Below are positions 1,417 to 62,157 of a stretch of 64,000 nt of DNA, in pieces; position 1 is the stretch's first letter; each line of letters opens with the position of its first letter. Both the position numbers and the translations under genes were made by a program. The notes under the pieces are model-generated. The model was given only the letters and a program-made list of their open reading frames with translations. It ran no database searches and was not told the origin of the DNA. Origin of the DNA: an uncultured Anaerolineae bacterium (lineage in GTDB: Bacteria; Chloroflexota; Anaerolineae; Aggregatilineales; Phototrophicaceae); assembly GCA_937995825.1 (NCBI GenBank), contig CALKJO010000001.1:62001-126000 (forward strand), in the 5' to 3' direction.

Positions 1417-3314
1417 TCCCCCTTCAGAAATCGTCGTCCCCACAGTTCCAACGTCAGCAGGCGAAAGACGATCTCCACCTGCGGCGCGCGTCCGCTGAAA
1501 TGCCCGTCCAACAGCCGATCTAATGCGTCCCCCTCAAACCACACGCGCACGAGCGCGCCCGGATCGCGCAGCACCGCCTGAACCCGCGCCGCCAGCGCCC
1601 CACTGAACCATGCCAGAATCGGCGTCCCGAACGGCTGCTTGGGACGTTCAAGCGCCCACGCTGGCAGCAGCGGACGCATCGCCTCGCGCAGCACATGCTT
1701 ATTGCTCAGCAGCTGCAGGCGCGCCGGAATCCCCGCCGCCCAGCCGAGCAGCGCCGGGTCAAAGAATGGTACGCGCGCCTCAAGCGAATGCGCCATCGTC
1801 ACTTTGTCCGTGTTGAGCAGCGCGTTGCCCGCCAGCCAGGTGTTGATCACGAGCCGCTGCGCCAGTTTCGCAGGATCGGCGTCCTGGCTCTCCCGCACAA
1901 CCGCCGCAAATGCGCTGTCTTCAGATGGCGGCGCAGCGCGGTAGAGCTGACGGCGCAGCGCGTCGGTCAGCACCAGTCCATCGAACGACATCGCCCGCCG
2001 CAGCCGATCAGCGCGCTCCAAGAGCGGAAGCCGCCAGCGCGGCAGATGGGTCGGCAGCGCGCCGACTGCCCGCCAGCGCTTCATCGCCGGATAATGCGGC
2101 TCGATTCGCTGAAACACCCCATCCAGTGGGGCGAGCGCCCGCCCCCACCGCCGCGTCAAAGCCCAGGGAATGACGCGGTGATGTCCATAGCCGCAGAACA
2201 GTTCGTCCCCACCCAACCCCGTCAGCACCACTTTGACGCGCTTTGCCGTCTCCTCCGCCAGCAGCAGCAGCGATACCGCCGATGGATTCGCGTTCGGCTC
2301 ATCGTGGTGATAGATATACCGCTCATAACCGCGCCACCAGTCCTCGGCATCGATCACCTGCTCATGATGCGCCGTCCCAAAGTGGACGGCGATCCGGCGC
2401 GCCGCCGCCAGCTCATTATCCGGCGTCGTCGTCGCGTAGCCGACGGTGAACGTCTCGATCTGACCGCCATGCGCCGCCATATTCGCCAGCACCGCCGCCG
2501 AGTCCACGCCGCCGCTCAGAAACAACCCCAGCGGCACATCGCTGCGCAGATGCAGCCGCACCGACTCGGCGATCCGCTCCCGCGTCCCTGCGATGATGGC
2601 GGCATCATCCAGGTCGCCCATCTCAACCGCCGCCGCGCCGAACCGCCATGTCTGAAGCGTGTCGAGCCGTCCGCGTTCCGCGATCAGCGCGTGTCCGGGC
2701 GGGATTCGCCGGATGCCTTTGAACAGCGTCTCGACACCGACCCGGTAGCCGAAGGTCATGTAATGATCCAGCAGACTTTCATCGATCTCCGCCCGCACCG
2801 CCGGATCGACCAGCAGCGCCTTGACTTCGCTGGCAAAGCGCAGCATCCCGCCCGCCTCATGCACGTACAGCGGCTTCATCCCAATGTGATCGACCGCCAG
2901 CACCAGCCGCGACCGCGCTTCATCCCACAGCGCAATGGCATACATCCCGCGCAGCGCGCTGAACATCTCATATTCATCCCGCTCATACAGATGGATCAGC
3001 GTCTCGCCGTCTCCCTCCGTCCGAAACCGGTGACCCTGACCGATCAGCGCCGCGCGCAGCTCGAGGTAATTGTAAATTTCACCGTTGAACATCAGCGCGA
3101 TCTGCCCGTCCTCGTTGAAAAGGGGCTGATCGCTCCCCGCCACATCGATGATGCTCAGCCGCCGCATCCCCGTCGCCAGATCGCCCGATGCCGACTCGTA
3201 AAACCCGTCCCCGTCCGGTCCGCGATGGCGAATCGCCGCCGCCATTGCCCGCACGATGCTCCCATCTGCCCGTCCATGACCCGTCAGATCGAACATCCCG
3301 ACAATTCCGCACAT
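1413..3314 (-). CDS. asnB: Asparagine synthase (glutamine-hydrolysing)
   Basis: A 633-residue AsnB-family amidotransferase. It converts aspartate, glutamine and ATP to asparagine, or amidates another carboxylate in surface-polymer clusters. The mature N-terminus MCGIVGMF gives the Cys2 glutaminase nucleophile, followed by RHRGPDGDG and NGEIYNYLELR of the class II glutaminase. The ATP-pyrophosphatase half begins near residue 265 with SGGVDS (the PP-loop), and GLGGDELFCGYG lies further on. Length is normal for the longer bacterial type. An AGAGGAC ribosome-binding site precedes the ATG. It heads a minus-strand transcript that continues into the overlapping gene ending at 406. Whether the substrate is aspartate or a sugar or peptide acid cannot be told from sequence. 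Confidence 0.95.
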   Translation of the reverse strand: MCGIVGMFDLTGHGRADGSIVRAMAAAIRHRGPDGDGFYESASGDLATGMRRLSIIDVAGSDQPLFNEDGQIALMFNGEIYNYLELRAALIGQGHRFRTEGDGETLIHLYERDEYEMFSALRGMYAIALWDEARSRLVLAVDHIGMKPLYVHEAGGMLRFASEVKALLVDPAVRAEIDESLLDHYMTFGYRVGVETLFKGIRRIPPGHALIAERGRLDTLQTWRFGAAAVEMGDLDDAAIIAGTRERIAESVRLHLRSDVPLGLFLSGGVDSAAVLANMAAHGGQIETFTVGYATTTPDNELAAARRIAVHFGTAHHEQVIDAEDWWRGYERYIYHHDEPNANPSAVSLLLLAEETAKRVKVVLTGLGGDELFCGYGHHRVIPWALTRRWGRALAPLDGVFQRIEPHYPAMKRWRAVGALPTHLPRWRLPLLERADRLRRAMSFDGLVLTDALRRQLYRAAPPSEDSAFAAVVRESQDADPAKLAQRLVINTWLAGNALLNTDKVTMAHSLEARVPFFDPALLGWAAGIPARLQLLSNKHVLREAMRPLLPAWALERPKQPFGTPILAWFSGALAARVQAVLRDPGALVRVWFEGDALDRLLDGHFSGRAPQVEIVFRLLTLELWGRRFLKGE

Positions 3315-3461
3315 CGATTTGAAGTCCTCTGCTGATCGGTCTCCATTTATGAGAAATTGTAAAATCCGAGCGGGAAAGTTTGGTAAGAACCTAAGTATAA
3401 GTTAGAGTCACGTTAGTTTCGAATGAAATGACGGCGTCAATCAGCTCTGGACATCTATTTC

Positions 3462-4769
3462 ATGCCCGCCTCACTCTCTGACTCTCAGCCATCACCGCGC
3501 ACACGCCTGATCTTCAACAACATCATCGCGTTGCTGATCGCGCTGGGGCTGCTGGTCACCCTTACGCCGCCGCTCATCTTTCAAGACCCCGATTACACCT
3601 ACTTCGGAGACTATGCGCCAGTCATGCTGGCTGCACTGGCGGGCAGCGCCATCGCCGTCTTCGCCGCCCATGTCTTTGACGCTCGGTTGGGCGCGGCGGC
3701 GTTGATCGCCACGTTCTTCTTGCTGATCCCTGTCGGCTTCATCATATCGCCGCCGATCAGCCGTCTCAGCTTTCTCACATTTTACATTCTCCCCGTGCTG
3801 CTGACGAACACCTTCTTTGGCTATCGCCTGCTGGTTCTCAGCGCCGCCCTCGCGCTCGCCAGCATGATCACCCTCACCCAGATTTCTCCCGACATCAAAA
3901 TGAGCGATCTGTTCGCCGGACCTGGCGCGCTCTTTCTTATGTCGATCAGCATAATCCTCATCGCCCAGTATCACCGCGATCTCGTTGAGTCCGAGCATCG
4001 CGCCAAACTGATCGAGGCTGAGCGCCTGCGCACCGATCTCGAAATCGCCCGTGAACTCGACGCCACCAAATCGCATCTGATGCGCATGATCAGCCATGAG
4101 TTCCGCACCCCCATAACCATAATCCGAACATCTTCCGAGCTGATCGAGCGCTACAGCGAACGGATGGCTCCCGAACAGCGCGCCGAGCATTTCAATGCCA
4201 TCTATCGCGAAATCGATTTCCTCAACGCGATGATCGAGGATGTCGCCATTGTAACCCGCCTTCAGAACGAACGCTTTCGGCTTCAGTTCAAGCCGCTCGA
4301 TCTTCAGGGATTCTGTCTGGAATTGATCGCCGCCTTCAAGCGCCGGATCGCGCCCGATCACATCTTTAAATTTGAAAGCGTAGGTAATCTCAACGGCGTC
4401 CCGATTGATGAAACGCTCCTGCGTCACATCCTCGGCAACTTGCTCAGCAATGCCGCCAAGTATTCGCCCCCGGGCAGCGAAGTCCTGCTCCGGGTTGAGA
4501 GAAAAACGGATGAGCTTCGAATCACCGTCCGCGATCAGGGGATCGGCATCCCCGAGTCCGACCGTCCCAATCTCTTTGAGCCGTTTTTTCGCGGCAGCAA
4601 CACCGAAAACCAACCCGGCAGCGGTCTTGGCATGAAAATCGTCGCGGACAGCGTCCGTCTGTATCAGGGCAGCATCAGCTTTGAGTCCACTGTTGGCGCT
4701 GGCACGACGTTTTTCATCCGCCTACCGATTCCCTTGTCGAGCAGTCGAGCTGAAGCAGAGCGCCGGTGA
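3462..4769 (+). CDS. Membrane sensor histidine kinase
   Basis: A 435-residue sensor kinase. About six hydrophobic segments fill residues 15-170 (for example IIALLIALGLLVTL and LFLMSISIILIAQY), with no large extracellular loop, so it may sense a membrane-borne or intramembrane signal. A short coiled linker leads to the H-box (MISHEFRTPITIIRT, about residues 209-223), then the N-box (NLLSNAAKYS), G1 (DQGIGIP), F-box (FEPFFRG) and G2 (GSGLGMKIV), all intact. It autophosphorylates on the H-box histidine. No response regulator gene adjoins it, so it is an orphan kinase. It is divergent from asnB across a 147-base gap. A small GGCGTC/GACGCC hairpin follows the stop. Confidence 0.93.
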   Translation: MPASLSDSQPSPRTRLIFNNIIALLIALGLLVTLTPPLIFQDPDYTYFGDYAPVMLAALAGSAIAVFAAHVFDARLGAAALIATFFLLIPVGFIISPPISRLSFLTFYILPVLLTNTFFGYRLLVLSAALALASMITLTQISPDIKMSDLFAGPGALFLMSISIILIAQYHRDLVESEHRAKLIEAERLRTDLEIARELDATKSHLMRMISHEFRTPITIIRTSSELIERYSERMAPEQRAEHFNAIYREIDFLNAMIEDVAIVTRLQNERFRLQFKPLDLQGFCLELIAAFKRRIAPDHIFKFESVGNLNGVPIDETLLRHILGNLLSNAAKYSPPGSEVLLRVERKTDELRITVRDQGIGIPESDRPNLFEPFFRGSNTENQPGSGLGMKIVADSVRLYQGSISFESTVGAGTTFFIRLPIPLSSSRAEAERR

Positions 4770-4774
4770 CGAAG

Positions 4775-4789
4775 GCGTCATTGACGCCC
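4775..4789 (+). terminator. Short hairpin after the sensor kinase
   Basis: GGCGTC-ATT-GACGCC forms a 6-bp stem with a 3-base loop, six bases after the kinase stop, followed by CCTTTTAC. The T-run is only four long, so this is a weak intrinsic terminator candidate. It overlaps the -35 box of the next promoter. Confidence 0.4.
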
Positions 4790-4810
4790 CTTTTACAGCG
4801 CGGCTATAAT
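4783..4810 (+). promoter_or_regulatory. Sigma70-type promoter for the LysM gene, probably leaderless
   Basis: TTGACG (4783-4788), a 16-base spacer and a consensus TATAAT (4805-4810). The ATG at 4819 starts only 8 bases after the -10 box, so transcription would begin at or within two bases of the start codon and the mRNA would be leaderless. No ribosome-binding site is present, which fits. Confidence 0.6.
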
Positions 4811-4818
4811 GCCCACCT

Positions 4819-5721
4819 ATGAAAACCTTCATGCTTCTGTGTCTGACTTTGCTGGTGAGCGTTCTGATCGCTGCGTCCAGCGCCCACGCCCAGCGCCAGG
4901 ACCGACCTGACGGGGCGGTCGTGTATGTCGTGCAGGCAGGTGACACGGTCGATGGCATCGCTTTTTCGTTTGGCGTCACGCGCGCCGAGATCATGGCGCT
5001 CAATAACATCACCGATCCCCGCCTGATCCAGGTCGGGCAAGAGCTGCTCATCCGTCCGCGCGCCGCTCCGTCGCCGACACCTGAACCCAGTGCGCTTATC
5101 CCTGCGCGCGGCTCGCTGCTCGCCACCCCCGCAGATCAGGCAGCAGCCACGCCTGCGCTTACACCCAGCATCGCGCCAGCGCCGATCCTTGCGCCCGTGC
5201 AGCCCGCCCTTGATCCGCGCGCGGCTGATGTCCGCATCTGCCTTGAGCTGTTCGACGACGCGAATCACAATCGCATTCAAGACACGAATGAACCGCCCAT
5301 CGGGGGCGGCTCGCTCTCGCTGCTTGCACCCGATGGCGCGCAGATCGCCGCGTGGGACAGCGCCGCCGACTCCGCCGCGCGCTGTATCGATGGACTTGCC
5401 CCCGGCGGTTACACCGCGTCCGCGCGTCCGCCGAATGGCTTCGGTTTGACCGGCACGGACTCGCTGCGCATCGACGCCAACCACGGCGCAGACATCCGGA
5501 TCGCCTTCGGCGCAGCGCGCGGGCTGCCGGTCACGCCGCTGCACGCGGTCGATTTCGCCCTTGTTGTCGATGAGCCGCTTCCGTCCACGCTTCGCGCCGC
5601 TGCGACGCCGACCGTGACCAGCCTGATGCGCGACAATCTCGGTTTGTTCGCCTTCGCCCTCGCCGGGCTCGTCCTGATCGGCGGGATCGGTATGGCATTT
5701 CTGGCAAGAGGAAAACGCTGA
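4819..5721 (+). CDS. Secreted LysM and SdrD/Cna-B-like protein with C-terminal anchor
   Basis: A 300-residue exported protein. A signal peptide (MKTFMLLCLTLLVSVLIAASSAHA) is followed by one LysM domain of about 45 residues (VYVVQAGDTVDGIAFSFGVT through LIQVGQELLIRP) that should bind peptidoglycan or chitin-like glycan. A Pro/Ala/Thr linker follows, then an SdrD/Cna-B-like beta sandwich with calcium-loop character (LFDDANHNRIQDTNEPPIGGG). One C-terminal membrane helix (LFAFALAGLVLIGGIGMAFL) ends in a basic RGKR stop-transfer. It looks like a wall-binding protein tethered to the membrane. The next gene starts at its stop codon and encodes a second copy of the Cna-B-like module. Confidence 0.85.
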   Translation: MKTFMLLCLTLLVSVLIAASSAHAQRQDRPDGAVVYVVQAGDTVDGIAFSFGVTRAEIMALNNITDPRLIQVGQELLIRPRAAPSPTPEPSALIPARGSLLATPADQAAATPALTPSIAPAPILAPVQPALDPRAADVRICLELFDDANHNRIQDTNEPPIGGGSLSLLAPDGAQIAAWDSAADSAARCIDGLAPGGYTASARPPNGFGLTGTDSLRIDANHGADIRIAFGAARGLPVTPLHAVDFALVVDEPLPSTLRAAATPTVTSLMRDNLGLFAFALAGLVLIGGIGMAFLARGKR

Positions 5722-6290
5722 TGCGTATGACGCTGCTGCTTATGCTGATCATGGGTCTGTTGGCGTTTCGCGCCGCCGCGCAACCCGACGGTGGACAATT
5801 CTGGGTGCAGTTCTTCGAAGACCTGGACGGGGACGGCGTGCGCGCTGCGGATGAGTTGCCCATCACGCGCGGGGCAGTGGCACAGCTTCTTAACGCTGAG
5901 CGAGTCGTGATCGAGTCGGCGCTGCTGGACACCGCCAGCAACGCCGCGCGCGGTCTGGTCGCCTTCCAATACCTGACCGCCGGCGAATACACGCTCCAGA
6001 TCAGCGCCGCCGAATGGATCTCCACCACGCCAACCGAGTTCACCCGCGCTATCACCCCTGACCAGCCGCCGACGGTCGTCGAGGTGGGTTTACAGCGCCT
6101 CCCGATCACGGCGCAGCCTGCATCGCGCTTCAGCGAGTCGGAATGGAAGGAGCGTTCGTCGCGCGCTCGGATCGCGGCGGCGGGAGTCGGCGCATCGCTT
6201 GCCGCCGGCGGGATGATCGCACTGGGAGGATTGATTGCAGGATTGGCATTCCGTCCTCGCCGCAGCCGGTCAGGACGACCGTCAGACTAA
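5721..6290 (+). CDS. Membrane-anchored SdrD/Cna-B-like protein
   Basis: A 189-residue protein whose ATG overlaps the previous stop (TGATG). Signal peptide MRMTLLLMLIMGLLAFRAAA, then a single SdrD-like domain with a calcium-loop motif (FFEDLDGDGVRAADELPI) similar to that in the gene before it, and a C-terminal Gly/Ala-rich membrane helix followed by RPRRSRSGR. The fold is a prealbumin-like sandwich common in surface proteins. No enzymatic motif is present. Coupled translation and shared domains suggest the two products work together at the cell surface. Confidence 0.8.
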   Translation: MRMTLLLMLIMGLLAFRAAAQPDGGQFWVQFFEDLDGDGVRAADELPITRGAVAQLLNAERVVIESALLDTASNAARGLVAFQYLTAGEYTLQISAAEWISTTPTEFTRAITPDQPPTVVEVGLQRLPITAQPASRFSESEWKERSSRARIAAAGVGASLAAGGMIALGGLIAGLAFRPRRSRSGRPSD

Positions 6291-28603: not shown

Positions 28604-30394
28604 ATGATCCCCAACAACAGCGCGAGCGGCAGTGCAGAGCGCGCCGTCGGCGCGCAGACCGCCGAGCAAGCGAGCGGCGATTTGCCCAACGCACTGCACA
28701 GATTGACCGATCTTCGCGGGATGCTCGATCAGCTGAGCGCCGGTATCCGCAGTCAGGACGCGCTGCTGCGAATGCGCCAGCTCAGTCTCCCTCAAAACGT
28801 GCTGAACCAACTGATCCAGCTTGAGCATGATCTATCCAGCTTGCAGCACGCGCTGCTCGATGATGAAACAGAACTGACTCAGCTTCGCGCCTTGGTGGAG
28901 ATGTCTGCGATGATCAATTCATCGCTGGATGTCGATGCGGTGCTGGCGCAGGCGATGGATGTCATCATCACGCTGACCGGAGCTGAGCGCGGTTTCATCC
29001 TGCTCACCCATGAGTCGACCGGCGAACTCGAATACCGGGTCGCGCGCGGCGTTGAGCCGAGTGATCAGGGCTATGAAGTCAGCCGAACGATCCTCAACGA
29101 CGTGATCACGACGGGTAAAGCTCTGCTGACCGACAATGCCTCTGTCGATCCCAATCTTCAGGAGAGCGAGACGGTCGCGCGCTTCGTGCTGCGCTCTGTG
29201 CTGTGCGTGCCGCTGGTCTACAAAGACCTGATCATCGGCGCGGTCTATGTCGATAATCGCTATCGCGAAGGCGTCTTCACGGAGCGCGAGCTGAATCTGT
29301 TGACGGCATTTGCCAATCAAACGGCAGTTGCCATCGAAAATGCGCTGCTGTACACCCGCGTGCAGCAGCAGTTGGAAGAAATTTCGCGCGTCAACGAGCT
29401 GCTGGAGAATATCTTTGCATCGATTGCCAGCGGCGTGATCACCACCGACAGCGACAACACGATCACACTGTACAATCACGCGGCGGAGGCGCTGTTCAAT
29501 CTCGCCCGCGAGAACGCGATTGGCGCGCCGATCAGCCGCGTGCTGCCCGATCTCGACGAGCGGGTGTTAAGCCAGATACGTGAGCAGAGGCAAAGTGCCG
29601 CGCTGGAACTGGAAACCACCATCAGCGGGCGCGGGCGCCGCCTGCTGGGCATCCAGCTGACGCCGCTGCAGAACACGCGCCAGGAGACTCAGGGCGGGGC
29701 GGCGCTGGTGCTGGATGACTTGACCGAACAGCGCGCGCGCGCCGCCGCGCTGCAAAACATGCGCGTGTTCATGCCGCCTGGGATGATCGAGAATATTGAC
29801 CAGATCGCCAATCTCGCGCTGGGCGGCGAACGGCGCGAGATCACTTGCGTTTTTGTGTATGTCTGCTCCTACAGCATCTTTCCCCGCAACATGCGCCCGC
29901 AGGCACAGATGGAAATGCTCAACGCCTACCTGGAAGTCGCGACCGGGACGATCTTCCGCGCTGACGGCGTGATCGACAAATACATGGGCAATGAGATCAT
30001 GGTGCTGTTCAACACGCAGTTGAACCCACAGACCGATCACGCGCTGCGCGCTGTGCAGATGGCGCTGGCGCTGCGCAACGACTTTCGCGCGCTCTATCGC
30101 CAGTCCGCAATCGCGTCGGAGGTCGATTATTACCGGATCGGGATTCATTCTGGAATCGCAACGCTGGGCAACGTCGGCAGCGCGAACCGCCGCAGCTTCA
30201 CCGCCATCGGCGACACCGTCAATCTGGCAAAGCGGCTCGAAGAAAATGCCAAAGATGGTCAGATTCTCGTGAGCGAGGAGACAGTCAGCGCCATTGGCAC
30301 TGCCAACCCGCCAATCCATTTCATTGAACTCGGCGCGATTCAGGTCAAAGGACGTCAGCAGTACACGCGCGTCTTTGAGGTCTTCGAAAGCTGA
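28604..30394 (+). CDS. GAF-PAS-class III cyclase, C2-like half (metal aspartates lost)
   Basis: A 596-residue protein: helical N-terminus (1-95), GAF (about 98-255, MSAMINSSLDVDAVLAQAM to VAIENALL), PAS (about 268-385) and a class III nucleotidyl cyclase domain (about 405-590). The metal-binding aspartates are absent: the first position is Tyr419 (CVFVYVCSYS) and the second is Asn463 (DKYMGNEIM). The substrate Lys459, the base-recognition position (Thr533) and transition-state residues Asn540 and Arg544 (GDTVNLAKRLEE) are retained. As a homodimer it should be inactive. It pairs in pattern with the next gene, whose ATG overlaps this stop (TGATG). Both GAF and PAS domains should sense a small molecule, light or redox state. 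Confidence 0.92.
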   Translation: MIPNNSASGSAERAVGAQTAEQASGDLPNALHRLTDLRGMLDQLSAGIRSQDALLRMRQLSLPQNVLNQLIQLEHDLSSLQHALLDDETELTQLRALVEMSAMINSSLDVDAVLAQAMDVIITLTGAERGFILLTHESTGELEYRVARGVEPSDQGYEVSRTILNDVITTGKALLTDNASVDPNLQESETVARFVLRSVLCVPLVYKDLIIGAVYVDNRYREGVFTERELNLLTAFANQTAVAIENALLYTRVQQQLEEISRVNELLENIFASIASGVITTDSDNTITLYNHAAEALFNLARENAIGAPISRVLPDLDERVLSQIREQRQSAALELETTISGRGRRLLGIQLTPLQNTRQETQGGAALVLDDLTEQRARAAALQNMRVFMPPGMIENIDQIANLALGGERREITCVFVYVCSYSIFPRNMRPQAQMEMLNAYLEVATGTIFRADGVIDKYMGNEIMVLFNTQLNPQTDHALRAVQMALALRNDFRALYRQSAIASEVDYYRIGIHSGIATLGNVGSANRRSFTAIGDTVNLAKRLEENAKDGQILVSEETVSAIGTANPPIHFIELGAIQVKGRQQYTRVFEVFES

Positions 30395-32130
30395 TGGTCG
30401 AAAACACCGAGAAATTCCGCAAGCTTTCGCCGCTTCCGCAGACCACTCAGGAACAGATTCGCGAAGTCCGTATGCGCCTGAGCGATCTAGAGAACATGCT
30501 GCGCGATCATCTGCCGATTCTGCGTCAGCGCGGGATGAGTCTGCCGGCGCGCACGCTGATCTATCTGTCTCAGCTTCAAAACGGGCTGGACGCGCTCAAT
30601 CGCGAGCTGACAGCGCGCCAGATTCAGCTTCGCCAGCTTCGCGCTCTGCCCCAGACAACTGCGCTGATCAATTCAGCGCTCGCCATGGACAGCATCCTGC
30701 AAGAAGTGATGGACACGGCGGTGATACTCACCGGCGCGGAACGCGGTTACATCATGCTGCGCGATCCAGCGACTGGTAAAATGGAATTTCAGGTCGCGCG
30801 CGGCATCGACAACAAGCAGTTGAGCCGCGATGAATTCATCATCAGCAATACGATCATCAACGAAGTCGTCAGCACCGCGCAGCCTGTGCTGACGCACAAT
30901 GCGCGCAACGATAACAAATATATCGGGCAGGAGAGCATCGTCGGCTATCAACTGCGCAGCATCCTAGCTGTGCCGCTGAATGTCAGCGGCAGCACGATTG
31001 GCGTGGTCTATGTCGATAACCGGATCATGGACGGCGTGTTCACCGAGCGCGAGATGAGTCTGCTGGAGGCGTTCGCCAATCAGGCTGCGGTTGCGCTGCG
31101 CAATGCCCAATTGTTCGAGACTGCGCGCCAGCAGTTGGCGCAGATCACGACCTTGCGCGATCTGCTCAGCAATATGTTTGCCTCGATCAACAGCGGGCTG
31201 ATCACGCTGGACGGCGCAGATACGGTGACCGGGATCAACCGCGCTACCGCTGTGCTGATCGGCGTGGACGAGGCGGAGGCGCTGGGAATGCCGCTGAGCG
31301 CGCTGCTGCCGGCATTCAGCGCGCATTTTGCAGATGCGCTGGAGCACGTCCGGCAGAATGGGGTGGCGGCGGCGGGCGAAATCGAGATCAAGATCGCCCA
31401 ACGATCCCGTTATTGGCGCGTGGGCATCACGCCGCTGCGCGGTCAGTATGGCAGCGTCGTGATCGTGATCGACGATCTGACCGCGCAGCGCGATCATGAC
31501 CTGCTGCTGACCTATCTGCCCAATCCGGCGCTGGCTGAAAAAGTGGACTTCTCCACCCTCGGCGGGCAGGAACGGCTGATCACGGTGATCAGCGCGGATG
31601 TGCGCGGCTTCAGCACTGTCAGCGAGCATCTTGAGCCGGAACAACTGATGGAGATCATCAATAAATACCTGAGCGTCGCCAGCGAAGCGGTCAACCGTCA
31701 GGAGGGGATCGTCGATAAGTATCTGGGCGACTGCGTAACCGGTTTGTTCAACACCCAGCTCAACGAACACGATGATCACGTCATGCGCGCCGTCCGCGCC
31801 GCGCTGGGTATACTGCATGATGTCCGCGCGCTGCATGAGGTCTTGCCGCCGGAGCAGCGGCTCAATTTTGGGATCGGCATTCATACTGGCATCGCAGTGC
31901 TGGGCAATATGGGCAGCGCCAACCGCCGTGAATTTTCAGCGCTGGGAGACGCGATGGAGATGAGCAAGCTGCTCCAGGAAACCGCCGGACCGGGCGAGAT
32001 CATCCTCAGCGCCGCGACCTATGAACTGGTCAAGGATATATTTGAGGCAGTGCCGAAAGCGCCGCACAAAACCAAAAACGATCCGTCTTTCGCCGTCATG
32101 TACAGCCTGACCGGGCGTAAGAAAAACTAG
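30394..32130 (+). CDS. GAF-PAS-class III cyclase, C1-like half (metal aspartates kept)
   Basis: A 578-residue paralogue of the preceding protein with the same domain order: helical start, GAF (about 90-245), PAS (about 255-370) and cyclase domain (about 390-570). Here both metal aspartates are present, Asp402 in ISADVRGFS and Asp446 in DKYLGDCVTG. The transition-state pair is lost: Glu522 and Leu526 (GDAMEMSKLLQE) stand where Asn and Arg are expected. GDC after the second loop even resembles the C1 half of mammalian adenylyl cyclase. It should need the upstream protein to complete one active site. Product cAMP or cGMP cannot be fixed, although the Thr at the base site of the partner is more often seen in adenylyl cyclases. 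Confidence 0.92.
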   Translation: MVENTEKFRKLSPLPQTTQEQIREVRMRLSDLENMLRDHLPILRQRGMSLPARTLIYLSQLQNGLDALNRELTARQIQLRQLRALPQTTALINSALAMDSILQEVMDTAVILTGAERGYIMLRDPATGKMEFQVARGIDNKQLSRDEFIISNTIINEVVSTAQPVLTHNARNDNKYIGQESIVGYQLRSILAVPLNVSGSTIGVVYVDNRIMDGVFTEREMSLLEAFANQAAVALRNAQLFETARQQLAQITTLRDLLSNMFASINSGLITLDGADTVTGINRATAVLIGVDEAEALGMPLSALLPAFSAHFADALEHVRQNGVAAAGEIEIKIAQRSRYWRVGITPLRGQYGSVVIVIDDLTAQRDHDLLLTYLPNPALAEKVDFSTLGGQERLITVISADVRGFSTVSEHLEPEQLMEIINKYLSVASEAVNRQEGIVDKYLGDCVTGLFNTQLNEHDDHVMRAVRAALGILHDVRALHEVLPPEQRLNFGIGIHTGIAVLGNMGSANRREFSALGDAMEMSKLLQETAGPGEIILSAATYELVKDIFEAVPKAPHKTKNDPSFAVMYSLTGRKKN

Positions 32131-39312: not shown

Positions 39313-39855
39313 TTACGCCCGCCCGAAATTCGGCGGCTCATAGTGAATTCCGTCCACTTTCTGCATCGTCGTCAGGTGTTCTTCCCAGTGATGCAGAAAA
39401 TATGCCTGCACCGCCCGCTCGACCGTGAGATAGGCGCGGCTGGGTGGATGCCAGACAGGATGGGTGAATTTATCAATCGGTAAAGCCAAGATGAATGCGC
39501 CGATGCGCTCCTGATGCGCTTCGATCTGGCGAATCGTGGTTGCGATCAGCCGATGTCGAAACACAGCGGCGCTAAGTCCGTTCAGAGTGTTGACAACCGT
39601 CAGCGGCAGAGGTGGCGCGATGCCGATCAGCGCTGCTTTGATCTGAAGCATCCCCAGCGAGTCGATCAGGTAGAGGTGCATCAGCATGGCGGACAATGAC
39701 CAACCATGATAGCGCGGCGCGGCGTGTTTCTCGGCTGGGATGCTGTTCGCCAGCGTGATGACCGAGCGGCGAACGCGCCTGATCTCCGCGATCAACGCCT
39801 GACGATCCGCCTCTGTATCGAGAAACCGCCATTCGCGCTGCGTTTTGGTGTCCAT
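39313..39855 (-). CDS. DinB-like four-helix protein
   Basis: A 180-residue protein with the DinB/YfiT fold pattern: four long helices, with spaced metal-ligand candidates at His in GWSLSAMLMHLYLID and in the final helix (QAYFLHHWEEHLTTM). DinB-superfamily members bind a divalent metal and often transfer or use thiols such as bacillithiol or mycothiol. The substrate here is unknown. ATG 39855 (MDTKTQ) is chosen over 39885 since AGGGG lies upstream. It is the first of a two-gene minus-strand unit with dtd. Confidence 0.8.
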   Translation of the reverse strand: MDTKTQREWRFLDTEADRQALIAEIRRVRRSVITLANSIPAEKHAAPRYHGWSLSAMLMHLYLIDSLGMLQIKAALIGIAPPLPLTVVNTLNGLSAAVFRHRLIATTIRQIEAHQERIGAFILALPIDKFTHPVWHPPSRAYLTVERAVQAYFLHHWEEHLTTMQKVDGIHYEPPNFGRA

Positions 39856-39981
39856 CCTAAAAAAACCCCTCAACTTTTCTCCCATATTATCCCGTTTCCA
39901 GCGAAGGCGTCAACTAAAGCGCGTTTTGCGCCGCCGCTGATCGTGACTTACAATAGGCGAGCGGTAAGGAAAGATAAGGTG

Positions 39982-42900
39982 ATGGCAGATAGTCTTTTCG
40001 ATCAGCGGTATCGTTATGACTTTATTTATCCGCGCGGGCGCTCCGGCGAGACGCTGCGCGCGGTTGACACCCTTGATGGAGACCGTCCGGTCGTTATCAA
40101 GCGCCCTGCGCCGCACGATGCGCCGCCGATCCGCTATGGGCAGGAGGTCAGCATCCTGAATGAGCGCAAGGCGCTGATGCGGCTGGCTGGACATCCCGCC
40201 ATCACCGCGCTGCTCGCCACCGGACAATTCACCGTCAGTGGGACGATTCATCAGTATATCGTCATGGAGCGCGCCGAAGGCGCGATCATCGCGGAGGTCG
40301 TCCTTGAACTTGCCGCGCGCGGCGAGCGCCTGCCCGAATTGGAGATGCTGACGATCCTGGACGGGCTGCTCGATCTGCTGATTCAGGCGCACAGCCGCGA
40401 CATCGTCTACAACGACGTGGATGCTAAGCATCTGTTTTGGGATCGCGACCATTACCGCCTGAAGGTGATCGACTGGGGCAACGCCGTCTTTCTGGAAGGC
40501 GACGAAAGCACGCCGCAGGGAGTCAGCCGGCAGTCGGACATCTATCAGGTGGGCGAGCTGATCTATTTCATCCTGACCGGCGGCGGGCGCGTCGATATTT
40601 CGCGGGCGGAAGCAGCCACAGCGAGCGAGGATTTTCGCCTGAATTTCGGGCATGAAGCCGAGCGCATCGCGCCACAGATGCAGGCGATTGTCAGCCGCGC
40701 TGTGCATCCGAATCCGCGCCTGCGCTACGCGACCATCGCCGAGCTGCGGCGCGATCTCAATGACTACCGCATCCCAATTGAGCGCGACCGCAACGCCGTG
40801 ATCGGACGGGTCAATGATCGACTCCGCCGCGACCTGAGCAAGGATGATCTGATCGGGCTGGCGCGCACGCTTGAGCCGGCGCTCGCCATCGATCCCGGCT
40901 TTCCAGCCGCCAAGCAGGCGGCGCTTGAGATACAGCACCGCCTGAACGACCTGGCAGTTGCCGCCGATCTGGACGCCGTGCGCATTTATCTGCAGAGCGG
41001 GAACTGGTCGCGAGCGACGCTGCTGCTGGATGAGCTGCGCTCGCGCGCGCGCAGCGAGACCGCCGCATTGATCGGGCTGCTGAGCGACTGGTGCGCCCTG
41101 CTGATTGAGCAGGACATCCGTCCGCTGCCGCCCGCCGTCGTCGAGGCGATCAGGCTGGTCTTTGAACGCCACTTCGACCGCGCTGCTGTCACACTGCTGA
41201 CGCAGGGCATCGAGGATGTGAACGCGCGCGGGCTGCAACTGCTGCTGGCGGAACGCATCTCCGCGCAGATGAATGACATCCTGCTGCTGCGTCCCAGCCT
41301 CTACCGGCTGGAGACGGCGCTGGGCGCGCTGGCGGCGGAAGGGACAGCGCTGCAGGAGCCGCGCGCGCTGCTGCGCGAGATTCAAACGGCTGTTGACAGC
41401 CTCTCTGGCAGCAGCACAGCCAATCTCAACCAACTGCGTGACGGTTTTCGCGCCATCGTCGAGCAGTTGATGGCGCTCAACAGCCTAGTCGAGACCGCGC
41501 AGGTGCAGCGCGGACTGAGCAACCGCCAGCTTCCTGCCACCACGCTCAGCCGCGCCCTGAATGCGGCGATGGGGCTGGCGGACAACATGCACATCATCGG
41601 CAAGCAGGCGGTCGAGAATCCCCGCGAAGCCGGGCGCGCCCTGGAGAACAGCCGCGCCATCGATCCGGCTAACACCGCTTGGGACGCCATCGCCCGCTTG
41701 CTGCGCAGCCTGTATGACCTGCTCAACAGCTATCAATCCTACTTCCCCGCGCCGGACGGCTCCGATCTGGCGGAATGGCTGGCGACGACCCATGCAGAAC
41801 TGCAGCCGTTCGCCGAGCGGCTGTTCGATGAGACGCTGGTCAGCATAATCGTCGGTCTGGAGATCGCGGCGCAAAGCTGGCGAACGTATGCATCGGCGGT
41901 CGTGCAGGGCAATCGCGGCGCGGCGCTGCTGGCGCTGTCTCAGGCGACCGACGCCGTGAGCGCGGTCAGCCCAACGCTAGCGGGCTGGTTCAGCCAGCTT
42001 CGCAGCGTGGTCAACGGAGCAAATTATATCGAGCGGCACGCGCTCTATGGCGCGCTCGGTCGGGCGCTGGCGGACGGCTGGGAGAGCTTCGACCGCAGCC
42101 GGCTGGCGGAAGCGGAGCGGCTGGGCAAGCAGGCATACGATGCCGCCCGCGATGATTCGGAGCGCGCCGCGGCGCGCCGTTTGCGCGATCTCGCGCAGGT
42201 CATGCGCGACTGGGTCGAACGCGGCGTCGGCGGCGATGTCAAACGGACTCAAGCGGCGCTGGCGACCGTCGAGCTGCTGTTCACCGCCGACGAGATCGGC
42301 GCGCGCGACGCCTTTTCCGCGCAGATGCCGAGCAAAGAGACCTATCTGAAGGCGATGCATAAGGGCTTGGTCGATAACTATCATCGGCAAAGCACCGCGC
42401 CCGCTCGGATTCTGTTCGCCAACTATGTGCTGTGGGGCGCGCTGGAAGCCCACGAAAATCGGCTGGATGACGCGCGCTTCTGGCGCGAAGCGGCGGTGCG
42501 CGCGCTGGGCGATCTTGGTGCAAAACACAGCGCCGTCCGCGCGCTGGACGAATTCATCGACCGGCGGCACGATCTCAGTCTGGCGGCGGCGCTGATCAAC
42601 AGCCTGAACAACGCGGCGGCGCTCACCCGACTGGAGCGCGCGCGCAAGGCGCTTGAAGACAATCCGCAGGCGCGCCTGCTGACCGCCGCGCATTTCAGCC
42701 TGCGCGAATTGGAAGCGGCGCTCCGAGACTGGTTAGACGGCGAATTTCGCGCCGCCGGCATCAAGCTGGAAAACGCCGCGCGCGCCATCGATCAGGCAGA
42801 GTCGCAGGCGGGCTTCACGCTGACGCAGTACCGCGCCTATATCATGGAGCTGATGCGCGCGGCGGCTGAACTGCATCAAGGCGCCCGCAAGATCACCGCC

Positions 42901-44367
42901 ATCGTCGAGAGCCGCAGCGATGACCAGCTCGCGGCGCTGCGAACAGCGCATCAAAATCAGCTCGACGTGACGGCGCGGCTGATCGGCGAACCATACACAA
43001 CGAACCTGCGCACCTGGCGCGACACGCTGGAAACCATGCTGACGGTCTATCTAGATCGGACGATGCGCCGCAGCGCCAAACTGCTGCGCTTCAACGACGT
43101 GTTTCAAATGGTCTTCATCGACCGCCACCCCGCTTACGCGCTCTATCGGCGCTGGCAGGACACGATTGAGGCATCGCCCGAATTTCCGCCGCCGCCTACC
43201 GTCGAACCCACGCCGCGCATGACCGAGGATGAAGCGCCGCTGCCCGATCCGGTCGAAGCTGTTGAACCTGAGCCGCCCACCGAGGCGGAGTCCGCGCCTG
43301 AACCGCCATCGGCAGCGCAGGCAGCCTTACCAACAGGCAGACGCTCGCGGCTGCCGCTGCTGGCGGTGATCGCGGGCGCGCTGATCGTCGCGCTGGTGAT
43401 CAGCACCGGTCGAGAGGCAGCCCCTACCGATCCGACACCCACAGAGATGGCGGCAGTCGTCGAGACCGAGCAGCCATCAGCCCAGCCGCTGATCGCTGAA
43501 GCGACACCATCCGCCCTCCCCATTCTGCCGACCCACACGCCGACGGTGACAATCGAAACCTCGCCAACCCCGCCCGCGTTACTGGCGACGGTCGCGCCGC
43601 GTGGAGAAGAAACCGCCACACCAACTCGCCCGCCCTCCGAGACGCCGATGCCCTCTGCAACGTTCACCGCGTCGCCCACTGCGACCTTCACGCCGTCGAA
43701 TACGCCAACCCCAACCGACACGCCGACCGACTCCCCCCCGCCAACGGCAACGCTGCCCCCTGGCGGGCTGCGCGGCGCACAGTCGATTCTGGCGCGTGCG
43801 GCGCAGACCGGATTGGCTCCCTGGGATGCCTTGTATTTCTCGCCGATCTTGAACAGCACTGACGGCATATGGCGCTTGGGAACAGGCGAATTCACCGGGG
43901 GCGACACTAAATTCATTCAGATCGACTCGGAAACGCTAGAAATCTATTTTGGGGCAAATGCCGCCGAACGGGTCTTCCTGATGGAAACCACGCTCGCGCT
44001 GACGACCTGGAACCCTGCGCTTGTTATCGATCAGCAGGTCTTTTTCGGGGCAGCGCTGCAAAATGCGGCAAATCCAGCGCAGCAGATCGGAGTCGATATC
44101 CGCTTGGTGCGCGATGGAGTGATCCGCCTTGGGGTGCGCAATGGAAATGAAGTTAGCACTATTAGCGAGCGCGCGGTCAGCGCGTATGAAGTGCGGCTGC
44201 GGCTAGAATACGATGATCGCGCCGGCGCGATCAGCCTCTTTTTCAACAATGAACGGCTCGGTCAGCCGATACCCTTCACTGCCAGCGCGGGACTCGGTCC
44301 GGCGCTGTATGTCAAGGATGGCGGGGTGATCGTGTATGTATCGGCGTGGTCAGTCAGCCTGCGTTAA
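39982..44367 (+). CDS. Giant atypical Ser/Thr kinase-like receptor
   Basis: A 1461-residue protein; ATG 39982 (MADSLFDQ) follows AAGG. Residues 10-290 are kinase-like: the Gly loop is weak (PRGRSGETLRAV) and the ATP lysine is Lys40 (PVVIK). The catalytic loop reads YNDVDAKH (143-150) in place of HRDxKxxN, and DFG is DWG (164-166). The catalytic Asp is kept, but the loop Lys and Asn are not, so activity is doubtful. About 750 residues of helical, Ala/Arg/Leu-rich, repeat-like sequence follow. One membrane helix (about 1126-1145), a Thr/Pro/Ser linker (about 1150-1260) and an external beta-sandwich-like domain (about 1265-1461, lectin- or laminin-G-like pattern) complete it. Probably a transmembrane sensor. 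Confidence 0.85.
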   Translation: MADSLFDQRYRYDFIYPRGRSGETLRAVDTLDGDRPVVIKRPAPHDAPPIRYGQEVSILNERKALMRLAGHPAITALLATGQFTVSGTIHQYIVMERAEGAIIAEVVLELAARGERLPELEMLTILDGLLDLLIQAHSRDIVYNDVDAKHLFWDRDHYRLKVIDWGNAVFLEGDESTPQGVSRQSDIYQVGELIYFILTGGGRVDISRAEAATASEDFRLNFGHEAERIAPQMQAIVSRAVHPNPRLRYATIAELRRDLNDYRIPIERDRNAVIGRVNDRLRRDLSKDDLIGLARTLEPALAIDPGFPAAKQAALEIQHRLNDLAVAADLDAVRIYLQSGNWSRATLLLDELRSRARSETAALIGLLSDWCALLIEQDIRPLPPAVVEAIRLVFERHFDRAAVTLLTQGIEDVNARGLQLLLAERISAQMNDILLLRPSLYRLETALGALAAEGTALQEPRALLREIQTAVDSLSGSSTANLNQLRDGFRAIVEQLMALNSLVETAQVQRGLSNRQLPATTLSRALNAAMGLADNMHIIGKQAVENPREAGRALENSRAIDPANTAWDAIARLLRSLYDLLNSYQSYFPAPDGSDLAEWLATTHAELQPFAERLFDETLVSIIVGLEIAAQSWRTYASAVVQGNRGAALLALSQATDAVSAVSPTLAGWFSQLRSVVNGANYIERHALYGALGRALADGWESFDRSRLAEAERLGKQAYDAARDDSERAAARRLRDLAQVMRDWVERGVGGDVKRTQAALATVELLFTADEIGARDAFSAQMPSKETYLKAMHKGLVDNYHRQSTAPARILFANYVLWGALEAHENRLDDARFWREAAVRALGDLGAKHSAVRALDEFIDRRHDLSLAAALINSLNNAAALTRLERARKALEDNPQARLLTAAHFSLRELEAALRDWLDGEFRAAGIKLENAARAIDQAESQAGFTLTQYRAYIMELMRAAAELHQGARKITAIVESRSDDQLAALRTAHQNQLDVTARLIGEPYTTNLRTWRDTLETMLTVYLDRTMRRSAKLLRFNDVFQMVFIDRHPAYALYRRWQDTIEASPEFPPPPTVEPTPRMTEDEAPLPDPVEAVEPEPPTEAESAPEPPSAAQAALPTGRRSRLPLLAVIAGALIVALVISTGREAAPTDPTPTEMAAVVETEQPSAQPLIAEATPSALPILPTHTPTVTIETSPTPPALLATVAPRGEETATPTRPPSETPMPSATFTASPTATFTPSNTPTPTDTPTDSPPPTATLPPGGLRGAQSILARAAQTGLAPWDALYFSPILNSTDGIWRLGTGEFTGGDTKFIQIDSETLEIYFGANAAERVFLMETTLALTTWNPALVIDQQVFFGAALQNAANPAQQIGVDIRLVRDGVIRLGVRNGNEVSTISERAVSAYEVRLRLEYDDRAGAISLFFNNERLGQPIPFTASAGLGPALYVKDGGVIVYVSAWSVSLR

Positions 44368-61183: not shown

Positions 61184-62157
61184 AAGATCTAAGCCAGGTC
61201 AAGCGGTCGCTGGGCGATCAGCAGTATGTCGCCACCGATGAAATCGCAACGGTGATGTTCCTGGCTGAGCAGCTTGGCAAACCTGTATTAGCTGAGGGGC
61301 CTGCCGGCGTTGGCAAGACCGAACTGGCGAAAGCCTGGGCGAAGATCAGCCGCAAGCCGCTGATCCGCTTGCAGTGTTACGAAGGGCTGGACGAAAGCAA
61401 GGCGCTTTACGAATGGGAATACGCCAAGCAGATGCTCTACACGCAGCTTCTGCGCGACAAGCTGAGCCAGCTTCTGGCGGATGCCAGCACGCTGACCGAA
61501 GCGGCGGATCGGCTGAGCAAAGAGGAAGATGTCTTTTTCTCGGATCGTTTCCTGCTGGCGCGTCCGCTGCTGAAGGCGATCACCTCCGATGAACCGGTGG
61601 TGCTGCTGATCGACGAGATCGACCGCGCCGACGCGGAATTTGAGGCGTTTCTGCTCGAAGTGTTGAGCGATTTTCAGGTGTCCGTGCCGGAACTGGGGAC
61701 GATTCAGGCGAAGCATCAGCCGATTGTACTGCTGACGAGCAACAACACCCGCGAGCTGTCCGAGGCGCTCAAGCGGCGCTGCCTGTACCTGTTCATCGAC
61801 TATCCGAGCGCCGAGACCGAGATTGGCATCGTGCGGATGCGCGTCCCGAATTTGAGTCAGAAGCTGGCGCAGCAGGCGGTCGAAGTCGTGCAGGGACTGC
61901 GGCAGATGGACTTGAAGAAAAGCCCCTCCGTCAGCGAGACCATCGACTGGGCGCGCGCGCTGGTCATGCTCAACGCCGACAATCTCGATAAGGAAACGCT
62001 CGAAAACACGCTGACCGTGCTGCTCAAACATGAGAGCGACGTGCAGAAAGCGAAGCGAGCGCTGCTCGGCAGCCGACCGCATCCACTCGACAACGACCCG
62101 CGCGGCTCCTCGTCGCAAAGTCGGCGTCTGCGTCGTCCGGGCGACTGGAATCACTGA
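61177..62157 (+). CDS. MoxR-family AAA+ ATPase
   Basis: A 326-residue AAA+ protein of the MoxR/CoxD type. Walker A is EGPAGVGKTELAKA, Walker B is VVLLIDEIDRADAEFEAFLLEVL, and sensor 1 is LLTSNNTRELSEALKRRC. The C-terminal helical lid contains SVSETIDWARAL. MoxR proteins assemble into hexamers and aid maturation of metalloenzymes with a VWA protein, which is not encoded in the window. ATG 61177 has AGGA upstream. The longer ORF is rejected because it reads through the divergent promoter. A glycosyltransferase gene starts 13 bases after its stop. Confidence 0.93.
   Translation: MLKDLSQVKRSLGDQQYVATDEIATVMFLAEQLGKPVLAEGPAGVGKTELAKAWAKISRKPLIRLQCYEGLDESKALYEWEYAKQMLYTQLLRDKLSQLLADASTLTEAADRLSKEEDVFFSDRFLLARPLLKAITSDEPVVLLIDEIDRADAEFEAFLLEVLSDFQVSVPELGTIQAKHQPIVLLTSNNTRELSEALKRRCLYLFIDYPSAETEIGIVRMRVPNLSQKLAQQAVEVVQGLRQMDLKKSPSVSETIDWARALVMLNADNLDKETLENTLTVLLKHESDVQKAKRALLGSRPHPLDNDPRGSSSQSRRLRRPGDWNH

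Follow-up and report, generated by a model that had tools for sequence, protein, structure and literature searches.

In mammalian adenylyl cyclases (ACs), including the soluble enzyme (sAC; ADCY10), the C1 domain carries the metal-binding Asp residues and the C2 domain the base-binding residues, the transition-state Asn and Arg and the phosphate Lys. PMC8815786 and PMC4506562 describe how two homologous domains share out the catalytic residues, so that each dimer has a single active site and a pseudo-site. In soluble guanylate cyclase (sGC) the subunits are separate, with the metal Asp residues coming from alpha and the Arg from beta, and the homodimers are essentially inactive (PMC3591389). 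The chytrid pair NeoR/RGC1 is an obligate heterodimer with clustered genes and one active site, for which NeoR, itself without the NxxxR motif, gives the metal Asp residues; a mutation of the RGC1 pseudo-site changed activity ninefold (PMC8815786, PMC12264004). Animal signalling depends centrally on heterodimeric cyclases that have a live and a regulatory site, and the route to them from a symmetric bacterial homodimer is seen mostly at eukaryotic end points. Here we describe two adjacent genes, A and B, from an uncultured bacterium of the Aggregatilineales, a little-studied order of the Anaerolineae (Chloroflexota), in which the same residues are divided between two separately encoded proteins. 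The genes lie on contig CALKJO010000001.1 (GCA_937995825.1), of which positions 62,001 to 126,000, the 64,000-nucleotide stretch analysed, are referred to as the window.

Gene A (28604..30394, + strand, as are all features given below; 596 amino acids) and gene B (30394..32130; 578 amino acids) each encode a GAF-PAS-class III cyclase, A being the C2-like (base and transition-state) and B the C1-like (metal-binding) subunit. We consider, with a probability of about 0.9, that A:B is an obligate heterodimeric class III cyclase in which one site is active and the other is a dead pseudo-site. In the proposed mechanism, B would supply Asp402 and Asp446, which would hold ATP-Mg in the C1 role, and A would supply, across the interface, the base-binding Lys459 and Thr533, the transition-state Asn540 and Arg544 and the phosphate Lys, in the C2 role. 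One working site would lie at the head-to-tail catalytic interface, and the mirror-image site would be dead and free to become regulatory. A and B very probably must pair to make a cyclic-nucleotide signal, activity being predicted for A:B only.

Catalytic residues of A and B

When A was used to search the order, 146 of 154 genomes matched, mostly with two matches each. Loci were examined from 120 of the 146 matching genomes and from the window; the remaining 25 all belong to genus g22, with two matches each. Open reading frames (ORFs) were included if they had at least 120 amino acids and scored at least 100 bits to A or to B, and one A whose B lies beyond the contig (L094) was counted as an A. 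The roles of the catalytic positions are drawn partly from general knowledge and partly from cited papers; motifs were positioned against solved cyclases, CyaB (3r5g) being the best reference, followed by CyaC (1wc0) and Cya2 (2w01), and the alignment was clean.

Within the window, A has Tyr419 (29858..29860) at the first metal-Asp position (Asp1), where its orthologues have Asp in 51, Glu in 40 and other residues in 14 of 105 cases, and Asn463 (29990..29992) at the second (Asp2), which is never Asp in the 106 readable A sequences (Asn in 51, Thr in 29, Ser in 20 and others in 6). A nevertheless retains the base-binding Lys459 (29978..29980; Lys in 106/106), Thr533 at the second base-binding position (30200..30202; Thr or Ser in 107/107), Asn540 and Arg544 of the transition-state NxxxR motif (30221..30235; both in 107/107) and Lys582 at the phosphate Lys position (30347..30349; Lys or Arg in 106/106). 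Conversely, B has both metal residues, Asp402 (31597..31599) and Asp446 (31729..31731), each Asp in 107/107, together with a Lys at the pseudo-site (Lys442, 31717..31719; Lys in 100 and Gln in 6 of 106), and Glu522 and Leu526 (31957..31971) replace its transition-state Asn and Arg. The Arg is absent from all 105 readable B sequences, the position being occupied by Leu in 46, Tyr in 18, Phe in 13, Lys in 12 and others in 16.

Thus, every one of the 106 readable A sequences has lost Asp2 and kept Asn and Arg, and every one of the 105 readable B sequences has kept both Asp residues and lost Arg, with 101 loci being readable for both genes. The two Asp residues never occur together in an A, nor do Asn and Arg in a B; the full catalytic set that characterizes homodimeric bacterial class III cyclases is found in 0/106 A and 0/105 B, whereas a complete metal-Asp pair confined to one partner (B) and a complete Asn/Arg pair confined to the other (A) are as in C1/C2-type cyclases. 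All readable A sequences share the loss of Asp2 and all readable B sequences that of Arg, whereas Tyr419 and Glu522 of the window belong to a lineage-specific layer. The initial annotation, made from the window alone, had correctly named Tyr419, Lys459, Asn463, Asn540 and Arg544 in A and Asp402, Asp446, Glu522 and Leu526 in B; its proposal of a C1/C2-like division is supported by the residue counts and by the per-column conservation described below, and the check it put forward, a search of the orthologues for regained residue sets, found none (0/106 A, 0/105 B).

A single A:B active site would be expected to preserve the Asp pair of B and the A set and to let the mirror set relax, and the observed entropies match this. 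Column entropies range from 0.00 to 0.66 bits over the held set (the two Asp residues of B and the Lys, Thr, Asn, Arg and Lys of A) and from 0.31 to 2.72 bits over the mirror set, i.e. their counterparts on the other subunit; on each subunit the site-1 residues vary little or not at all and the site-2 residues are mostly relaxed, with the exception of Lys442 of B. The split in conservation between A and B over the seven catalytic columns exceeds chance expectation: only 4 of 100,000 random seven-column draws matched it, these being taken, with kinship uncorrected, from 47 columns conserved in single-copy homologues, the Lys459 column lying just outside the 47. Sequence searches point the same way in several cases: B matches sGC best in alpha, the metal subunit, and matches both sAC and the transmembrane ACs in C1, and A matches sGC in beta, the Arg subunit, and sAC in C2, with the domain borders of AC8, AC9 and sAC used for this placement being presumed.

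The pattern of conservation also bears on the possibility that A and B are both pseudoenzymes, forming a GAF-PAS sensory heterodimer or scaffold that makes no cyclic nucleotide. This would account for the absence of essential residues from each protein and for the conservation of the GAF and PAS domains. A scaffold, however, would relax both halves, whereas the complementary site-1 residues are invariant across 45 genera (Asp402 and Asp446 of B in 107/107, Lys459 of A in 106/106, Asn540 and Arg544 in 107/107), and we regard the explanation as improbable.

Single-copy homologues, gene order and joint retention

Single-copy homologues with long, full-length similarity to both A and B occur in the sister family f8 of the same order and in other Chloroflexota. 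Outside the order, 400 genomes were searched, giving 77 matches (two in the window's own family), and 20 of the 75 matching genomes were examined. The full set of Asp, Asp, Asn and Arg is present in 28 of the 28 readable single-copy homologues, of which nine are from f8 and 19 from further families in the class and phylum, where one more sequence, the twentieth, is cut by a contig end; these proteins are therefore predicted to be symmetric homodimers. In a tree of 43 pairs and 29 single-copy homologues, A and B each form a clade and the two clades are sisters, with Shimodaira-Hasegawa-like approximate likelihood ratio test (SH-aLRT) values of 99, 98 and 100, respectively. A second tree, of 17 pairs and 16 single-copy homologues, gave bootstrap/SH-aLRT values of 100/99 for A, 100/98 for B and 100/99 for A+B; in both trees the f8 single-copy proteins and the outgroups lie outside A+B. 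Rows in both were of at least 500 amino acids and the seven catalytic columns were removed; the branch separating the outgroups from the order is weak (91/55), the A+B clade being unaffected.

These results support one duplication in this order after the split from f8, followed by reciprocal loss and, apparently, mostly vertical descent. A homodimeric GAF-PAS-cyclase would have been tandemly duplicated in an ancestor within the order, and the loss of Asp2 in A and of Arg in B would then have fixed their mutual dependence, each subunit retaining, on this model, its own GAF and PAS input. The split state is old and fixed. Ancestor-like (single-copy, full-set) and derived (split-pair) forms coexist in related bacteria and the losses can be traced across families, and the pair makes it testable how obligate heterodimers arise and whether a dead pseudo-site gains regulation.

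Gene order is equally constant. Both genes are present in 104 loci, from 45 genera and six families, on the same strand in all 104 and with A directly upstream of B in all 104; the named relatives are metagenome-assembled genomes (MAGs; labelled Aggregatilineales, Anaerolineae, Chloroflexi and the like). In the window the A stop and B start share one base, in TGATG at 30392..30396. Over the 102 loci measured, the nearest B start lies from 8 nucleotides inside A to 167 nucleotides downstream of its stop, the commonest spacings being overlaps of 4 (36 loci) and 1 nucleotide (21 loci), with 83 of the 102 falling between an 8-nucleotide overlap and a 9-nucleotide gap; the metric picks the closest start codon, and hence is biased to short distances. 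In seven genomes one member only was found: in six of these the locus is at a contig end (L053, L094, L150, L151, L152, L153), and the seventh (G081) has a 330-codon fragment in a poor assembly. Five genomes that are 85-96% complete (G037, G082, G083, G084, G131) have neither gene and no PF00211 match whatever, which we read as joint loss. Cyclases of other kinds occur in three incomplete genomes (G006, G023, G080), in which nothing matched the pair at 1e-40 (best 1.4e-40).

We also compared window ORFs of at least 110 amino acids between 18001 and 43000 with 80 loci (the best 80 of 363 relatives; some with short flanks) at an E value of 1e-20. No conserved neighbour was found on this scale: A and B match in 80/80, three antisense ORFs within A and B in 17-27, three others in one of the 80 each, and the rest in none.

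That A or B pairs not with its neighbour but with another cellular cyclase is conceivable in principle, as human sGC catalytic domains pair promiscuously (PMC3591389) and the same genome (G000:C9) has two additional full-set cyclases with canonical motifs, either of which might serve as the partner. Yet the adjacency and order of A and B in 104/104 loci, mostly overlapping or close, their joint absence from five genomes and the lack of any other window neighbour in more than one of the 80 loci make such a partner very improbable, and argue for pairing of A with B.

Several proposals of the initial annotation are thereby borne out. The one-base overlap is confirmed, as are the common GAF-PAS-cyclase architecture and the paralogy of the two products, the same kinds of Pfam family being found in both and the trees placing A and B as sisters. 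An origin by duplication and reciprocal loss is supported by the sister clades, by the complete single-copy homologues outside them and by the losses in 106/106 A and 105/105 B; the co-occurrence of the losses holds, with A then B at 104/104 loci and the split at all 101 that are readable on both sides.

The five genomes with neither gene belong to the window's own family, and this class of cyclase signalling seems to have been lost in three of its genera.

Predicted dimer geometry and opposing evidence

Seven orthologous loci have A and B in a single frame, separated by one or two stops (at least one in each of the seven). This enabled the A catalytic domain and B to be folded with AlphaFold2 as one chain, stop codons being read as a residue; the orthologues modelled were G013 and, as a repeat, G139, as stand-ins for the window, with alignment rows from in-frame pairs and from B only. 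The models have mean predicted local distance difference test (pLDDT) scores of 80.1 and 79.5 and predicted template modelling (pTM) scores of 0.52 and 0.50. With Foldseek both gave target TM-scores of 0.69 to the two-domain AC9 core (7pdd_A, 449 amino acids) and of 0.61-0.65 to human sAC. Since one domain could cover well under half of these two-domain targets, both domains superpose at once; consistent with this, query TM-scores (TMq) are 0.36-0.43 for two-domain AC targets versus 0.21-0.22 for single-domain bacterial cyclases. The structure prediction proposed at the outset thus predicts a C1/C2-like docking of the catalytic domains, the wreath-like dimer of such cyclases, and the closeness of complementary residues that it was to reveal, i.e. 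of the Asp residues of B to Asn and Arg of A, is suggested by the fold only.

A number of observations weigh against an obligate A:B heterodimer. With respect to the models, the Foldseek root-mean-square deviation on two-domain targets is 16-23 Å, presumably because the alignment also runs through the GAF-PAS region of B, and the first match by E value is a phytochrome-cyclase (6fht; TMq 0.24-0.25). One-chain modelling is itself a device, the A catalytic domain had only seven alignment rows and the pTM values are 0.52 and 0.50; moreover, with this domain order A can align only to C1 and B only to C2, and the score therefore bears on the dimer fold and not on which site is live. In sequence searches, the matches of A in AC8 and AC9 fall in C1 rather than C2. 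NxxxR put back into NeoR did not restore activity alone (PMC12264004), which implies that residue lists are insufficient by themselves. Finally, the losses are uneven, with Asp1 of A still Asp in 51/105 and Glu in 40/105, and the Asn of B still present in 16/105, mostly in family f2. These last counts would favour a non-canonical mechanism in which one member works without the other, A using just Asp1 or Glu1, or B dispensing with Arg, but with Asp2 gone from all readable A, Arg gone from all readable B, the NeoR catalytic domain without NxxxR inactive alone (PMC12264004) and sGC alpha or beta catalytic homodimers without significant activity (PMC3591389), this is the least likely of the alternatives considered.

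One locus departs from the heterodimer pattern more directly: at L149 (G035; 2402-5922) A and B are both fragmented and the second metal position of A is Glu, reflecting either decay or assembly error. As explanations of the split in general, sequencing or frame error is ruled out, because the split recurs in all readable copies of the examined loci, and the same recurrence rules out recent pseudogenisation, with G035 as the exception.

Relation to other split-site cyclases

The Guanylate_cyc family (PF00211) scores 67.3 bits for A and 47.9 bits for B, above the curated cut-off of 21.9, making both class III nucleotidyl cyclases; the cyclase domains span residues 411-588 of A (29834..30367; E 1.8e-18) and 396-554 of B (31579..32055; E 1.5e-12). 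Upstream of these, A has a GAF domain at residues 108-245 (28925..29338; PF13185, E 4e-17) and a PAS domain at 266-360 (29399..29683; PF00989, E 2.7e-10), and B has a GAF domain at 99-235 (30688..31098; PF01590, E 2.2e-18) and a PAS domain at 262-366 (31177..31491; PF08448, E 1.8e-8). The presence of GAF and PAS in each subunit makes two inputs possible, which the pair may integrate, perhaps as the coincidence detector suggested in the initial annotation. H-NOX is not among the families found by the Pfam scan of A and B (GAF, PAS and cyclase only), nor did that scan find a membrane domain in either, no dedicated membrane prediction having been run.

Like the mammalian ACs and sAC, A and B divide the catalytic residues between homologous halves, and the predicted A:B core superposes on AC9 and sAC. 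In the mammalian enzymes both halves are in one chain, whereas A and B are two neighbouring ORFs whose products are distinct proteins, each with a GAF-PAS input, which sets them apart from sAC-like fused tandem cyclases; from the trees, their origin is separate and lies inside the Chloroflexota. With sGC, the nitric oxide receptor, A:B shares an organization in two subunits, but the H-NOX domain and guanine-type base residues of sGC are replaced by GAF-PAS domains and by Thr or Ser at the second base position of A. The latter we take to be the adenylyl-type letter, and from this Lys/Thr combination ATP is the expected substrate and A:B most likely an adenylyl cyclase. The same genome has, besides the pair, two further class III cyclases with full residue sets (motifs by eye; G000:C9), one cyclase fragment and four matches to cyclic nucleoside monophosphate (cNMP)-binding proteins, making a cyclic adenosine monophosphate (cAMP) circuit plausible. 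The NeoR/RGC1 pair differs in being eukaryotic and rhodopsin-driven and in that its loss is one-sided, RGC1 keeping both metal Asp and NxxxR, whereas the loss in A and B is reciprocal.

The split-site principle is not new to bacteria, because fused tandem cyclases with the same split occur in the same order: L259 (549-2174, G143), L260 (1264-3705, G001), L261 (1465-3981, G006) and L262 (2140-5499, G023) keep the metal positions in their first domain and NxxxR in their second (motifs by eye). Unlike A and B, these are single polypeptides, with another domain context and only distant similarity to the pair. Fused sAC-like bacterial enzymes have also been described in print. The contrast originally drawn between this locus and symmetric bacterial homodimers is less sharp than stated, given the fused split-site cyclases of this order. 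Among the matches listed in open-access full text, subscription papers being outside this scope, there was no cyclase from a prokaryote built of two separate, complementary subunits. What is new is the form: the two subunits are encoded separately by closely spaced genes, have degenerated reciprocally and are of independent origin; the principle was already known.

With respect to the pseudo-site, Lys442 of B is Lys in 100/106, and residue 525 of B (Lys525 in the window, 31966-31968) is Lys or Arg in 105/105. Both are kept, even though they should be dispensable for catalysis at site 1, which suggests a possible regulatory pocket; we presume, from an unverified mapping, that they correspond to the bicarbonate-binding positions Lys95 and Arg176 of human sAC. 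It may be that a prokaryotic lineage independently arrived at a split-site logic like that of animal cyclases in the form of two subunits, each translated separately, with the dead site kept as a regulatory pocket and the pair integrating two GAF-PAS inputs and a pseudo-site ligand, a proposal that we make tentatively and consider rather doubtful in its entirety. From a practical perspective, the pair, in which the Pfam scan found no membrane domain, may be easy to produce in Escherichia coli, and could be of use to synthetic biology as a compact cyclase in two parts.

Two minor observations were made in passing. The window contains, at 39706-44367, an ORF of 1553 amino acids without a Pfam match at an E value of 1e-5. 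A sequence at G145:C444:181-714 scores 222.9 bits to PF00211, the next best score in that search being 109.3, and is possibly foreign contamination of the MAG.

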